Assembly: GCA_015484945.1 (NCBI GenBank) | Contig: WFUO01000015.1 | Location: 1 to 59,857, forward strand | Reading direction: 5' to 3' | DNA: 59,857 nucleotides | Source of the DNA: Gammaproteobacteria bacterium | Lineage (GTDB): Bacteria > Pseudomonadota > Gammaproteobacteria > WFUO01 | In this document: positions 10,886-19,759 of the stretch, one piece after another | Layout: each line of letters opens with the position of its first letter | How positions within the stretch are numbered: the first letter of the stretch is position 1 | Notes under the pieces: model-generated | Databases searched by the model: none | Seen by the model: only the letters and a program-made list of their open reading frames with translations | What the model was told of the DNA's origin: nothing | Program-made: the position numbers and the translations under genes

Positions 10886-12925
<2,040 letters not shown>

Positions 12926-13361: not shown

Positions 13362-14636
13362 TCAGATGCTGAACTTCTTCAATTTCTTCTTCACCGCGAC
13401 GTTCTTGAGCCGCACGTACTTCGGCAACCCGTTGCGATAGGGCGGATAGTCCTCGCCCTTGATCAGCGGCTCGAGATAGTTGCGGCATTTCTGGGTGATG
13501 CCGAAACCGTCGCGGGTGATGAAATTCTTGGGCATCATCTTCTCGACATTGGCCACTTTTGAAAGCGGCGCCATGCCCACCTTCCACTTGAACGGCTTGT
13601 CGGAGATGCGTTCGACCGTGGGCATGATGGAATTGTGCCCCTTGAGCGCGAACTCGACCGCGGCCTTGCCCATCGCATAGGCCATGTTGACGTCGGTTTT
13701 CGACGCGATGTGGCGCGCGGCGCGCTGCAGGTAGTCGGCCACGGCCCAGTGGTTCTTCAGGCCCAGTTCGCGCTGCACCATGCCGGCGATGACGGTGGCC
13801 GCGCCACCGAGCTGGGCATGGCCGAACGCATCCTTGAGGCCGGTGTCAGCGAGAAACTTGCCGTTCGGCCAGCGCACGCCCTCGGACACGACCACGGTGC
13901 AGTAGCCGTGGCGCTTGACTGTGGCCTCGACCTTGGCAAGGAATTTCTTCTGGTCGAACTGCACTTCCGGAAACAGGATCACGATCGGGATCGGCGTGTC
14001 CTCGGTCGAGGCCAGGCCGCCGGCGGCGGCGATCCAGCCGGCGTGCCGGCCCATGACCTCGACGATGAAGACCTTGGTCGAGGTCTTGGCCATGGACGCC
14101 ACGTCGAAGCTGGCCTCGCGGGTCGAAACCGCGATGTACTTGGCCACCGAACCGAAGCCCGGACAGTTGTCGGTGATCGGGAGGTCGTTATCCACGGTCT
14201 TGGGTACATGGATGGCCTGTACCGGGTAACCCATCTTTTCAGACAGTTGCGAGACCTTGTAGCAGGTGTCGGCCGAATCGCCGCCGCCGTTGTAGAAGAA
14301 GTAACCGATATTGTGCGCCTCGAATACCTCGATCAGGCGTTCGTACTCGCGCTTGTTGGCCTCCAGGCTCTTGAGCTTGAAGCGGCACGAGCCGAAGGCG
14401 CCGGACGGCGTGTGGCGCAATGCCTTGATCGCGGCGGCCGATTCCTTGCTGGTGTCGATCAGGTCCTCGGTCAGAGCGCCAATGATGCCATTGCGCCCGG
14501 CAAAGACCTTGCCGATCTTGTTCTTGTGCTTGCGCGCGGTTTCGATCACACCGCAGGCGGAGGCGTTGATGACGGCGGTCACACCGCCGGACTGGGCATA
14601 GAAGGCGTTTTTCGGAGCGGCTTTCTTGGTGGCCAT
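13362..14636 (-). CDS. pfp: 6-phosphofructokinase, PPi-dependent type
   Basis: MATKKAAPKNAFYAQSGGVTAVINASACGV; GGGDSADTCYKV; PKTVDNDLPITDNCPGFGSVAKY; start re-set to the ATG at 14636. Confidence 0.85.
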   Translation of the reverse strand: MATKKAAPKNAFYAQSGGVTAVINASACGVIETARKHKNKIGKVFAGRNGIIGALTEDLIDTSKESAAAIKALRHTPSGAFGSCRFKLKSLEANKREYERLIEVFEAHNIGYFFYNGGGDSADTCYKVSQLSEKMGYPVQAIHVPKTVDNDLPITDNCPGFGSVAKYIAVSTREASFDVASMAKTSTKVFIVEVMGRHAGWIAAAGGLASTEDTPIPIVILFPEVQFDQKKFLAKVEATVKRHGYCTVVVSEGVRWPNGKFLADTGLKDAFGHAQLGGAATVIAGMVQRELGLKNHWAVADYLQRAARHIASKTDVNMAYAMGKAAVEFALKGHNSIMPTVERISDKPFKWKVGMAPLSKVANVEKMMPKNFITRDGFGITQKCRNYLEPLIKGEDYPPYRNGLPKYVRLKNVAVKKKLKKFSI

Positions 14637-14676
14637 GTGCTTTCCTCTCTCTGGTATCTTGGGAGTTCCTGGTTGT

Positions 14677-15030
14677 CTATGCATCCCCGGTCTCAGACCG
14701 TCTTTCGCGTTCGTAGTCGGCCTGGGCCTGGAGCAGGGAAACGGTACATTCGGCCAGGTCGTCGTATTCCTCGACACCGGTGCCGAACTGCTGGTGAATA
14801 CGGTAGAAGAACTGGCAGCGATAGCGGCGGTCGCCGGTCTTGCAGATGACGAAGTGGCAGTCCTGATCTTCCCAGTACACCACCGGGCACAATGTGACCT
14901 CGCGGTCGGTCGGATGGAGGCGTATTTCGCTCTCTGCCAGTTCGATCTGGCGCGGCTCGCCGTAGCGTTCTTTCAGCGTCGTCTCGATGGTCCAGATTTC
15001 GCTGTCGGAAAAATCGTCGATCTTGTGCAT
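14677..15030 (-). CDS. Hypothetical protein, 117 aa
   Basis: Start re-set to ATG at 15030 (MHKIDDFSDSEIWTIETTLKERYGE...). Confidence 0.65.
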   Translation of the reverse strand: MHKIDDFSDSEIWTIETTLKERYGEPRQIELAESEIRLHPTDREVTLCPVVYWEDQDCHFVICKTGDRRYRCQFFYRIHQQFGTGVEEYDDLAECTVSLLQAQADYERERRSETGDA

Positions 15031-15372: not shown

Positions 15373-16650
15373 ATGAGAATCGTATTGATCGGCCCGCCCG
15401 GTTGCGATGACTCGTCATGGGCCGACAGGTTGGCCGAAAGGTTCCGGTCGCTGTCGATCTCGGTGCCCGATCTCGTGCGCGAGGCCATCGCCGCCGGTAC
15501 GCCGGCAGGTGAGCAGGCACGCGAGGAGCAGCACGGCAGTGGCAGTGTCAGTGACGAGACCATGGTCGATATCCTGCTCGAACGTATCGAGCGGACAGAT
15601 GCCGGCAACGGTTTCATCCTGCATTCGTGGCCGCGCACGCTGAAACAGGCCGAGCTGCTCGACCACGGCCTGCACAAGGCCGGCAAGCCGCTGCACGGCG
15701 TGATTCAGCTGGAGGTCGATCTCGACATCATGCTGCAACGCGTCACCGGGCGCCGCGTGTGTACGAGCTGCGGTTATGTGCACAATGTGTTCACCAATCC
15801 GCCCAGCATGGATGGCCAGTGCGACATGTGCGGTGGCAATCTCAGGCATCGCGCCGACGATCGTGAAGAAACCTTCGAGACCCGCATGCGGTTCTTTGAA
15901 CAGAACACCATTCCGGTCATCGAATACTACCGTCAGACCGAGCGTCTGCAGCGCGTGCATGTGGTCGGCGATCCCGATCACGTGTTCGGGATCATCGCCG
16001 GTATCGCCAGCGACATGGCCAGTCAGGAACCAAAGGTCGTCGTCACCCAGGTCGAGCCCAAGGTGACCATGCGCGAACTCGAGGCCAAGGTGTTTGGTGG
16101 TCTCGGGCTGGATGATACGGTGCCCGTTGACGACGCCGATGTCCTTGATGCCGGTGACGAGGACATCCTGCCACCGCCCGCCGAGGAAGCCGTTACCCCG
16201 GCGGCAAGCGAAAAACCGGCAACCGCGGCCCGGCAAAGGACCGCCAGGAAGGCCACGGCGAAAAAGACCGCGGCCGCGAAGAAGGCGGTCAAAAAGACCA
16301 CCACAAACAGGAAGCCTGCATCACCGGCCACGAAGAAAAAGGCCGCTGCAGGCAAAAAGAAGACAGCCGGCAAAAAGAAGACAACCGGCAGGGCCACGAA
16401 AAAAACGGCCAAAAAGACGGCTGTGAAAAAGACAGCCAAAAAGACGGCCGTGAAAAAGACAGCGGCGAAAAAGAAGCGCCCGGTCGGCAAAAAGTCCGCA
16501 AAGAAGACGGTGACAAGGAAAGCGGCAGCCAAAAAGGTTGTCAAAAAAGCCGCCGCCAAAAAAACAGCCGTAAAAAAGAAAAAGGCCGCGAAGAAGACCG
16601 CCAAAAAACAGGCCGGCAGGAAAAAGGCCGCTACCAGAAAGAAACGCTGA
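15373..16650 (+). CDS. Adenylate-kinase-like protein with degenerate P-loop and Lys/Ala-rich histone-H1-like C-terminal tail
   Basis: ATG 15373 preceded by ggag; GPPGCDDSSW replaces GxPGxGKGT; zinc-type lid CTSCG...CDMCGG; HRADDREETFETRMRFF; tail of repeated KKTAKK/KKAAAKK. Confidence 0.9.
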   Translation: MRIVLIGPPGCDDSSWADRLAERFRSLSISVPDLVREAIAAGTPAGEQAREEQHGSGSVSDETMVDILLERIERTDAGNGFILHSWPRTLKQAELLDHGLHKAGKPLHGVIQLEVDLDIMLQRVTGRRVCTSCGYVHNVFTNPPSMDGQCDMCGGNLRHRADDREETFETRMRFFEQNTIPVIEYYRQTERLQRVHVVGDPDHVFGIIAGIASDMASQEPKVVVTQVEPKVTMRELEAKVFGGLGLDDTVPVDDADVLDAGDEDILPPPAEEAVTPAASEKPATAARQRTARKATAKKTAAAKKAVKKTTTNRKPASPATKKKAAAGKKKTAGKKKTTGRATKKTAKKTAVKKTAKKTAVKKTAAKKKRPVGKKSAKKTVTRKAAAKKVVKKAAAKKTAVKKKKAAKKTAKKQAGRKKAATRKKR

Positions 16651-16843
16651 CGGTGTTCACAAATCGGGCGCCGCAGTCACAATCGGCCTTTGTCAGACAC
16701 CCCGGATAGCGGTTATATTGTCCCGGCATGGAATAAACCCTGTGGCTGCTGCGTCACCACAAGCATGGCCGGGAAAACCAGGCCGCTCCGGTCATCCGTT
16801 GTCGGAGATGCATCTACAAAACAAATCGAGAGGAGTACTGTCA

Positions 16844-17308
16844 ATGATATCAACGAAGAAATTTTCGCTCATGGCCATCGTCCTGACGGCCGCCCTGGCG
16901 CTCACGGGTTGCAACCAGCAGGCCACCAAGAAGTCCGGTGGTGACGATTTCGGTCCCAAGCACAAGGTCGTGATCCAGGTCAGCACCCGTGACCCCCTGA
17001 CCCAGAAGATCGCCCTCAACAATGCCGCCAACCTGCTCAAGCACTACGGCCCCGACAACGTCAAGATCGAGATCGTCGCCTACGGTCCGGGCCTGAGCCT
17101 GCTCACCAAGAAGAGCAAGAACAGCCTGCGCGTACAGAGCCTGGCCATGTCCGACATCCGCTTCAGCGCCTGCCGCAACACCATGAAGAAGATCATGCGC
17201 AAGAAAGGCAAGATGCCCAAACTGACCCAGGGTGTGAAGATCGTCCCGGCCGGCGTGGCGCGGATTATGGAGTTGCAGGAGAAGGGTTACGCCTACGTCC
17301 GTCCCTGA
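16844..17308 (+). CDS. DsrE-family lipoprotein
   Basis: MISTKKFSLMAIVLTAALALTGCNQQ lipobox; MSDIRFSACRNTMKKI...GVKIVPAGVARIMELQEKGYAYVRP. Confidence 0.8.
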   Translation: MISTKKFSLMAIVLTAALALTGCNQQATKKSGGDDFGPKHKVVIQVSTRDPLTQKIALNNAANLLKHYGPDNVKIEIVAYGPGLSLLTKKSKNSLRVQSLAMSDIRFSACRNTMKKIMRKKGKMPKLTQGVKIVPAGVARIMELQEKGYAYVRP

Positions 17309-17562: not shown

Positions 17563-17626
17563 CTTTTGCCGGCAAGGGCCGGCCACTTTGCGCTTTTGTC
17601 TTTCTCCTTTTCTTTTCTCCTGCCGG

Positions 17627-17684
17627 TTGAAATTTCTCTTTTTGTTCTCTAAACTTTCGGAAATGGGAGAACATTTAGAGAACA
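17627..17684 (+). promoter_or_regulatory. lexA-like promoter (TTGAAA-N17-TAAACT) with two inverted GTTC-N7-(G/T)TTC operators
   Basis: GTTCTCTAAACTTTC (17644-17658) and, inverted, GTTCTCTAAATGTTC (complement of 17669-17683); perfect 11-bp IR TGTTCTCTAAA/TTTAGAGAACA. Confidence 0.75.
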
Positions 17685-18292
17685 TACTGTTGTCACCCCG
17701 TCAGCGCGATGCGTGGCGTTTCATTCGCGACTACATCGCCACGCACGGCCACGGGCCGTCGCTGGCCGAGATCGCCGACGGCCTGGGCATCCGCTCGCGC
17801 GGGGTCGTGCACCGCCATGTGCGCGCGCTGGCCGATACCGGGTTGATCGAGCATCTGCCGGGGCGGCACCGGGGCATCCGCTTGTCCGGGGAAGGGGACG
17901 AGACAGGCACCCGTCGTGCGGTGTTGCCGCTGCTGGGACGTATCGCCGCCGGTGCGCCGATCGAGGCCATCCCGGATCAGCAGCAGGTCGATCTTGCCGA
18001 GTTCTTCATGGGGCCGAACCGCTTCGTGCTCCGGGTTCAGGGCGAGTCGATGATCGAGGCCGGTATCCTGCCCGACGACATGGTCGTGGTCGAGCGCCGC
18101 GAGACGGCGCGTGATGGCGACATTGTCGTGGCCCTGATCGATGGCCAGGAGGCCACGCTCAAGCGCCTGCAGCACAACCCCGACGGCAGCGTGACACTGT
18201 TCCCGGCCAACTGCCATATGGCGCCGATGATCTACCCGGCCGAGCGGGTGCAGATACAGGGCGTGGTGGTTGGCCAGATGCGAAGTTACTGA
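17663..18292 (+). CDS. lexA: LexA-family transcriptional repressor / S24 autopeptidase
   Basis: LSPRQRDAWRFIRDYIATHGHGPSLAEIADGLG HTH; cleavage site LLGRIAAGAPIEAI; GESM Ser; ATLKRL Lys. Start could be downstream (CTG/TTG at 17687/17690). Confidence 0.9.
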   Translation: MGEHLENILLSPRQRDAWRFIRDYIATHGHGPSLAEIADGLGIRSRGVVHRHVRALADTGLIEHLPGRHRGIRLSGEGDETGTRRAVLPLLGRIAAGAPIEAIPDQQQVDLAEFFMGPNRFVLRVQGESMIEAGILPDDMVVVERRETARDGDIVVALIDGQEATLKRLQHNPDGSVTLFPANCHMAPMIYPAERVQIQGVVVGQMRSY

Positions 18293-18359
18293 CAAGGCGA
18301 CTGAACCACGGAGATGGGGGGATATGGGGGAGCGAAAGATCATGCATGGTGGTTCGGAG

Positions 18360-18448
18360 CTGATCTGACAGCGCCTGTTTCAGACCTGGCAGGTCAGCGT
18401 ATTGGCCCTGTTTTCGAACCGGGCCTCATGCCTGCCCTGTCAGATCAG
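18360..18448. repeat. 12-bp perfect inverted repeat upstream of the polymerase gene
   Basis: ctgatctgacag (18360-18371) / ctgtcagatcag (18437-18448). Confidence 0.65.
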
Positions 18449-18517
18449 GACTGAACTGGTACGCCTCAGCCGGTTCAATATTCAGGCTGGTTCTGTGTTC
18501 CTGGTGGTTACTGAATC

Positions 18518-19759
18518 ATGATGCAGCTATGCCCGGTTTACTGGCCGCGCGCCATCATACACGTTGACATGAACGCCTTTTTCGCGTCCATCGAGCAGCG
18601 CGACTTTCCCGAGTTGCGCGGCCGCCCGGTGGTGATCACCAACGGTGAGCAGGGAACCTGCATCATCACCTGTTCGTACGAGGCGCGGGCGTTTGGTATT
18701 CACACCGGCATGCGCCTGCGCGAGGCGCGCCGGCGCTGTCATGACCTGGTGCGGCGCCCGGCACGCCCGGCTGTCTATGCGCGGGTATCGACCGCGATCA
18801 TGCGCGCGCTCGAGTGCGTCAGCCCCGATATCGAGGTGTTTTCGGTGGATGAGGCCTTTCTCGATGTGACCCGTTGCCAGCGCCTGCATGGTACCCCGTT
18901 GCGCATGGCGCGCATGGTCAAGCGGCAGGTGTATGAGGCGTCGGGGCTGCTGTGTTCGGTGGGCGTGAGCGGCGACAAGACCACGGCCAAGTTTGCCGCC
19001 AAGCTGGAGAAGCCCGATGGTCTGACGGTGATTCCGCCGTGGGAGGCGCGCGAGCGACTTGCCGGTGAGCCGGTCACGGCGCTGTGCGGTATTGCCGATG
19101 GCATCGCCGCCTTTCTGGCCGAGCACGGGGTGCGCCGCTGTGGCGAGGTCGGCCGCCTGCCGGTGAGTGTGCTGGCGCGGCGTTTCGGCAACCTGGGACG
19201 GCGCATCTGGCTGATGTGTCAGGGCGAGGACCCCGAGGGGCTGCATCCGCAGGCGCCGCCACCGAAATCGGTCGGCCACGGCAAGGTGACGCCGCCGGAT
19301 ACGCGCGACCGCAGGCTGATCCTGGCCTGGTTGCGGCACATGAGCGAGAAGGTCGGCGCGCGTCTGCGCCGTCACGGGCTCGCGGCGCAGGTGTTTCATG
19401 TCGGCGTCAGGACCAGCGCGGGCTGGATCGCCCGCAAGGCGCGCCTGCCCGTGCCCGGCAACCATGGTGGCGATATCTACCGGCTGGCACGAGGCGTGCT
19501 GGACGCGCTGTGGCGGGGCGAGGGCATTGGCCAGGTCCAGGTCACGGCGCTGGATCCACGGCCGGTGGCGCAACAGTGCGAGCTGTTCGGTGCCGGCGGC
19601 ACGGCGGGCGAGGTGGATGCCGCGATGGATCGTGTCAATCGCCGCTTTGGTGACCTGACCCTGGCGCCGGCGCGATTGCTGCAACGTTCTTGCATGCCGG
19701 ACGTTATCGCGCCGGCCTGGAAACCCGATGGCCTGAGGCAAACGATCGATGAGAGATAG
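18518..19759 (+). CDS. Y-family DNA polymerase (DinB/Pol IV type)
   Basis: IIHVDMNAFFASIEQRDFPELRGRPVVI; FSVDEAFLDVT; GVSGDKTTAKFAAKLEKPDGLTVIP. Confidence 0.93.
   Translation: MMQLCPVYWPRAIIHVDMNAFFASIEQRDFPELRGRPVVITNGEQGTCIITCSYEARAFGIHTGMRLREARRRCHDLVRRPARPAVYARVSTAIMRALECVSPDIEVFSVDEAFLDVTRCQRLHGTPLRMARMVKRQVYEASGLLCSVGVSGDKTTAKFAAKLEKPDGLTVIPPWEARERLAGEPVTALCGIADGIAAFLAEHGVRRCGEVGRLPVSVLARRFGNLGRRIWLMCQGEDPEGLHPQAPPPKSVGHGKVTPPDTRDRRLILAWLRHMSEKVGARLRRHGLAAQVFHVGVRTSAGWIARKARLPVPGNHGGDIYRLARGVLDALWRGEGIGQVQVTALDPRPVAQQCELFGAGGTAGEVDAAMDRVNRRFGDLTLAPARLLQRSCMPDVIAPAWKPDGLRQTIDER

Follow-up and report, generated by a model that had tools for sequence, protein, structure and literature searches.

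A lysine-tailed, zinc-LID adenylate kinase family beside the pyrophosphate-dependent phosphofructokinase gene of Gammaproteobacteria, with recurrent loss of catalytic residues

Background

Adenylate kinase (Adk) is a textbook essential enzyme, and a gene whose product has the Adk fold signature, but not the catalytic residues, raises the question of what such a protein does and what allowed it to change. A gene of this kind lies in the window analyzed here, by which we mean a whole stretch of 59,857 nucleotides, contig WFUO01000015.1 of a gammaproteobacterial MAG. A sequence-only reading had proposed a nucleotide-sensing or nucleoid-binding pseudo-kinase, marked by a histone H1-like tail, rather than a housekeeping Adk. 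The literature searched holds no description of a Lys-tailed Adk, of a bacterial pseudo-Adk or of an Adk beside a PPi-dependent phosphofructokinase (PPi-PFK), and a pseudoenzyme review leaves Adk unmentioned; neither the Lys-tailed family nor its repeated loss of catalysis seems to have been reported there.

The Adk-like protein of the window

The gene and its recognizable parts are the following:

15373..16650, plus strand: Lys-tailed Adk-like protein, 425 aa, catalytic residues gone (translation, Pfam matches, alignment)
15391..15420, plus strand: degenerate P-loop GPPGCDDSSW, with K13D; family consensus GAPGSGKGTQ (alignment of orthologues)
15454..15591, plus strand: NMP (AMP)-binding domain, eroded (T31V, G32P, M53Q etc.), R36 present (conserved-column comparison)
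15610..15639, plus strand: GFILHSWPRT (consensus GFILDGFPRN), Mg-site D84 changed to His, R88 present (alignment)
15739..15861, plus strand: zinc LID, with C130, C133, C150, C153 and the phosphate-gripping R123, R127, R160 (Pfam, alignment)
16063..16149, plus strand: linker helix-like motif VTMRELEAKV...TVPVDDADVLD (common to some other members, e.g. G045, G055, G034, f44, f132)
16228..16647, plus strand: H1-like Lys/Ala-rich tail, 140 aa with 53 K and 10 R (composition)

The start codon, ATG at 15373, is backed by a family-wide M1-R2 start, and codon-position GC of the ORF (0.66/0.43/0.77) follows a gene-like pattern with strong bias. The 425-aa translation confirmed the main features read from the letters: residues 7-16 are GPPGCDDSSW, with Asp at position 13, residues 80-89 are GFILHSWPRT, the four LID cysteines and the LID arginines are all in place, and the tail, residues 286-425, contains 53 K, 35 A, 21 T and 10 R among its 140 residues (K+R = 63). 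Pfam ADK (PF00406) matches the protein at 111.7 bits (E 4.6e-32, cut-off 26.8) and ADK_lid (PF05191) at 44.2 bits, the Cys4 pattern being that of the zinc-LID subtype; zinc-LID Adks are also its best solved relatives. Scores fall below the NCBIfam cut-offs for Adk (best equivalog 193.6 bits, 251 needed) and below that of subfamily TIGR01351 (164.6 vs 168). AlphaFold, run on 68 aligned family members, returned an Adk fold with pLDDT 96, as it would from such an alignment whatever the loop mutations; judged from this model, nothing in the sequence would forbid the Adk fold, activity being a separate matter.

Among the hallmarks of a functional Adk, the P-loop GxPGxGKGT with Lys13 and the Asp84 of LDGFPR, the Mg site, are replaced (GPPGCDDSSW and LHSWPR), and R36, R88, R123, R160 and R171 are all found. 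Compared with 85 intact orthologues, the protein has lost A8, G12, K13, G14, T15, Q16, T31, G32, D84, G85 and F86, and retains R36, R88, Q92, R123, R127, R160, R171 and every zinc ligand. The claim that phosphate-binding residues had been lost is right, with the small correction that R36 and R88 of the AMP site are also kept; what has gone is the P-loop, together with the Mg-site Asp and one half of the signature of the NMP domain. A sequencing error, named by the same reading as a possible source of the loop variant, was ruled out, along with a frameshift or point error, by the scattered substitutions, the stop-free frame and the independent losses in other lineages.

In E. coli Adk, the K13Q change cuts kcat to 0.0002 of the wild-type value, and the mutant fails to rescue yeast (PMC5028032). 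Since this single substitution is nearly fatal, the combination of K13D and D84H should, on established Adk enzymology, yield a dead enzyme, and the window protein has very likely lost catalysis.

The view that this is not the housekeeping Adk, which would fall if the genome had no other adk, was borne out by the genome search that had been suggested along with it. The MAG (1.81 Mb, 76% complete) contains, besides the window protein, exactly one PF00406 match, at G000:C24, a canonical, intact, non-zinc Adk with a GGPGAGKGTQ loop and LLDGFPRT; Adk activity need not, therefore, come from the window protein.

The locus and the family of tailed orthologues

Three genes on the opposite strand lie upstream of the adk-like gene, in the order hppA, pfp, small conserved protein; the counts for the last refer to members classified as altered or intact as defined below:

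10886..12925, minus strand: membrane proton-translocating pyrophosphatase, hppA (PF03030, 923 bits)
13362..14777, minus strand: PPi-dependent 6-phosphofructokinase, pfp (NF010675/PRK14072 PPi-type model, 661.8 bits)
14677..15030, minus strand: small conserved protein between pfp and the adk-like gene (found next to 31 of 38 altered and 24 of 80 intact members)

Searches of the class Gammaproteobacteria, of named genomes and of the order of G349 produced 124 further tailed orthologues. A zinc LID is common to them, as is a C-terminal tail that is rich in Lys and Ala and in most cases 70-440 residues long, and they usually feature a GAPGSGKGTQ loop and LDGFPRN. The group was defined by a divergent PPi-PFK within 1.5 kb, a basic tail and a zinc LID, all of which the window protein has, the PFK gene lying 637 bases ahead of its start and on the other strand. 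By its position, the window gene is an orthologue of a Lys-tailed zinc-LID Adk that occurs across the Gammaproteobacteria. Members were scored as altered on K13, G14, T15, R36, D84, R88, Q92 and the LID arginines, with a strict class defined by loss of K13 or D84. Altered tailed members number 39, one of which, from a named genome, comes without a copy count.

Where enough upstream sequence is available, a divergent PPi-PFK neighbors all 38 altered members and 57 of the 80 intact ones, and hppA often adjoins the PPi-PFK (26 of 42 intact, 24 of 32 altered). PPi-PFK and HppA have been proposed to lower the ATP cost of the Calvin cycle in chemolithotrophic symbionts (PMC4949241), and in Methylococcus pfp and a pyrophosphatase share one operon (PMC6543838). 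Two RuBisCO large-subunit matches occur in the window genome and, together with its PPi-type PFK and HppA, fit the ATP-economising proposal; carriers of the tailed Adk include a lucinid symbiont, of Ctena orbiculata (L038).

Other features of the locus may be listed briefly. The small protein at 14677-15030 belongs to no family in Pfam, NCBIfam or PHROGs and is rare in single-Adk genomes. Directly downstream of the tailed adk lies a gene (16718-17308, plus strand) for a DsrE/DsrF-like domain protein with a lipoprotein-like N-terminus, and a DsrE/DsrF-like gene has the same position in G055, G258, G244, G340 and G427; a lexA-like gene and an ORF resembling, by eye, a Y-family DNA polymerase follow at 17588-19759 (plus strand). 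A linker motif, x[TS]xx[ED]LExxV, is found between core and tail in scattered members, and TxPVDxxDxLD in the window protein and G045. An Rfam scan of the window gave no match, a promoter scan of the divergent intergenic region detected no sigma-70-like site, and all six terminator-like matches fall inside the tail-coding sequence and were taken as composition artefacts.

The window protein shares with the zinc-LID Adks of Bacillus and Geobacillus (1zin, 1p3j, 5g3y) the fold, over residues 1-212, the Cys4 site and the LID and core arginines; unlike them, it has no P-loop Lys or Mg-site Asp, carries about 210 extra residues ending in the Lys/Ala tail, and comes from a genome with a second Adk. 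Intact Lys-tailed Adks beside PPi-PFK, such as those of G034, G014 and G290, have the same position, zinc LID and tail, with a core about 42-49% identical, but retain GAPGSGKGTQ and D84 and can serve as a genome's sole Adk. The KKTAKK/AAKK composition of the tail is common to H1-like and AlgP-like tails, the one in the window being attached to an Adk fold, and the likeness is one of composition. The 335-aa NCBIfam model PRK13808/NF010381, "adenylate kinase", matches residues 1-127 at 124.8 bits, far under its 426-bit cut-off; this model, too, presumably includes a C-terminal extension.

Recurrent loss of catalytic residues

Altered sites were found in none of 40 single-Adk genomes and in 38 of 79 multi-Adk genomes (Fisher p=3e-9, kinship ignored), and loss of K13 or D84 in 0/40 and 22/79, respectively (p=8e-5, kinship ignored); the association with copy number is confounded by kinship, which inflates these tests, and the pairs available for an independent-pairs test were too few for a decision. 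Copy numbers were taken from MAGs, not all of them complete, but missing contigs hide extra Adks and can only shift a genome from single to multiple, so that no altered single-Adk cases are created in this way. The further Adks retrieved from the altered genomes of the earlier searches (L132-L151) are without exception intact in the loop, the AMP site and LDGFPRT; those of genomes added by later order-level searches enter as counts. A third Adk type, with a GAPGAGKGTV loop and a zinc LID, is the backup in many altered genomes (L132-L136, L138, L142, L144, L145, L147, L150, L151).

On a maximum-likelihood tree, parsimony counts at least 8 changes for the strict state and 9 for the broad one, some of which may be reversals or rest on weak branches. 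Intact and altered members occur within the same genus in three instances (G290 vs G043/G183/G369; G131 vs G244/G340/G427; G352 vs G143), and in genus g263, which is Ca. Thiodiazotropha-like, every sampled member is altered, all in one clade. The window protein falls with the f44 set (96/80), and its end branch, at 1.8, is very long. Members altered at a single residue (G14, e.g. G14R; R88, e.g. R88E) may still be active.

All 40 tailed members that are sole Adks have an intact site and carry the tail, which most likely predates catalytic loss and is best understood as an ancestral extension that an active enzyme already carried. The idea that the tail marks the pseudo-kinase is consequently not supported, and its new acquisition by a pseudo-kinase is ruled out. 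As the only Adk found in those 40 genomes, the intact tailed members probably work as enzymes, and it might be argued from them that the window protein is itself a weakly active, locally tethered Adk still aiding the PPi module; given K13D and D84H combined, when K13Q alone is so damaging (PMC5028032), this is highly improbable.

Retained regions and selection

Conservation in at least 95% of intact members defines 70 columns, 27 of which are lost in the window protein. The loss is concentrated in the phosphate- and AMP-binding parts and spares the LID, as the sequence-only reading had sensed: 17 of 20 LID columns survive, compared with 26 of the 50 in the rest of the protein (p=0.014). Averaged over altered members, the LID retains 91% of such columns, the P-loop 77% and the NMP domain 53%, and each of the 18 altered representatives retains more of its LID than of its NMP domain, although part of this contrast is built in, the altered class being defined by P-loop, AMP-site and D84 loss. 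Less circular evidence is offered by the NMP columns other than R36, by the window protein's own pattern and by eight divergent intact controls, one of which (G274) clearly shows the reverse, the others keeping both LID and NMP domain.

The zinc Cys4 site is retained in 39 of 39 altered members, and G10, G80, P87, Q92, R123, G126, N138, D151, G154 and E165 in every one of them. All but one also retain a substantial basic tail, several tails running into contig ends. The exception, G379 (L167, 4448-5194), carries G14R and has a tail nearly gone, of 35 aa.

Over the core, dN/dS in close altered pairs is about 0.02-0.2, for example 0.022 in G370/G397 (T15E, R36D, D84V) and 0.105 in G045/G185 (K13R, G14N, D84V), and 0.015-0.07 in intact pairs; such low values indicate that in those altered lineages the gene is not decaying. 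Order-level searches around the window genome, G043, G045 and G244 returned only 1-4 genomes, and the one around the window genome only itself, with no relative close enough for dN/dS. Selection on the window protein has thus to be gauged from other altered lineages, and it would be under the same purifying selection as these relatives.

These data bear on the possibility that the window gene is redundant and decaying, drifting towards loss since a second Adk became available, with a tail that persists as change-tolerant low-complexity sequence. The very long end branch, the 27 of 70 conserved columns lost and the redundant Adk in the genome would all be accounted for; yet a 425-codon open frame with gene-like codon-position GC, the selective retention of the LID, the low dN/dS of altered relatives and the uniformly altered g263 clade argue against decay, which we regard as unlikely.

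The retained R36, R88, Q92, R123, R160 and R171, and the PPi-PFK and hppA neighbors, might instead suggest an enzyme with new chemistry, such as a hydrolase or transferase for Ap4A, nucleotides or PPi-related compounds that works through the LID arginines. An E. coli D84A structure (8rj9) holds, according to its title, two ADP from enzymatic Ap4A hydrolysis, so that an Asp84-less Adk can, as far as that title goes, have side chemistry. The P-loop Lys is gone in the window protein, however, different altered lineages have lost different residues, and the alignment reveals no new catalytic set common to all, which makes new chemistry distinctly improbable.

Discussion

Orthology, position, the pattern of loss, the co-present intact Adks and purifying selection in close altered pairs are computed results; that the window protein shares this selection and has lost activity, what it binds, and its regulatory role, we infer. 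The altered tailed Adk probably does a non-enzymatic job. An ancestral tail, together with a catalytic half that erodes in the presence of a backup Adk while LID and tail stay, points to a second function of LID and tail at the pfp locus, and the reading that we favor, with some confidence, is that of a repurposed pseudo-Adk in a PPi-glycolysis/CBB locus, acting by its LID and tail and not by phosphotransfer. The proposal of a protein that is not a housekeeping Adk, shaped by selective loss, survives in this form without its link to the tail; the PPi-PFK/hppA position and the recurrence of the loss had escaped it.

The likeliest course of events is that a second Adk took over AMP/ADP balancing, relaxing selection for phosphotransfer, after which the protein would have lost its catalytic loop, its Mg-site Asp and its AMP domain, repeatedly and independently. 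Selection would have kept the fold, the basic tail and the zinc LID, including the arginines that bind phosphate. The LID of the pseudo-Adk may close on a nucleotide or polyanion and the tail may anchor it to an anionic polymer, whether DNA, RNA or polyphosphate, so that the protein could serve the neighboring PPi-glycolysis/CBB module as a tether or an adenylate-responsive regulator.

A partial parallel is found in the trypanosome AdoMetDC prozyme, reported to be a catalytically dead paralogue that regulates its active partner (PMC5201418). In both cases a dead copy is kept in a genome that has an active copy elsewhere; the prozyme acts on that partner, whereas the conserved neighbor of the window gene is PPi-PFK, not an Adk.

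It is conceivable, though we hold this only tentatively, that a pseudo-Adk class has arisen about eight times, with LID and tail selected, to serve the divergently encoded PPi-PFK/H+-pyrophosphatase module of autotrophic and symbiotic Gammaproteobacteria as a regulator or tether that is non-catalytic and responds to adenylates or PPi. Orthologues at one locus, with repeated catalytic loss that in this sample occurs only where a backup is present, and with LID and tail kept, constitute a natural experiment that separates the catalytic role of Adk from a second role. It points to a further function of the Lys-tailed Adk, tied to the PPi-based sugar phosphate metabolism that carbon-fixing bacteria and symbionts use.
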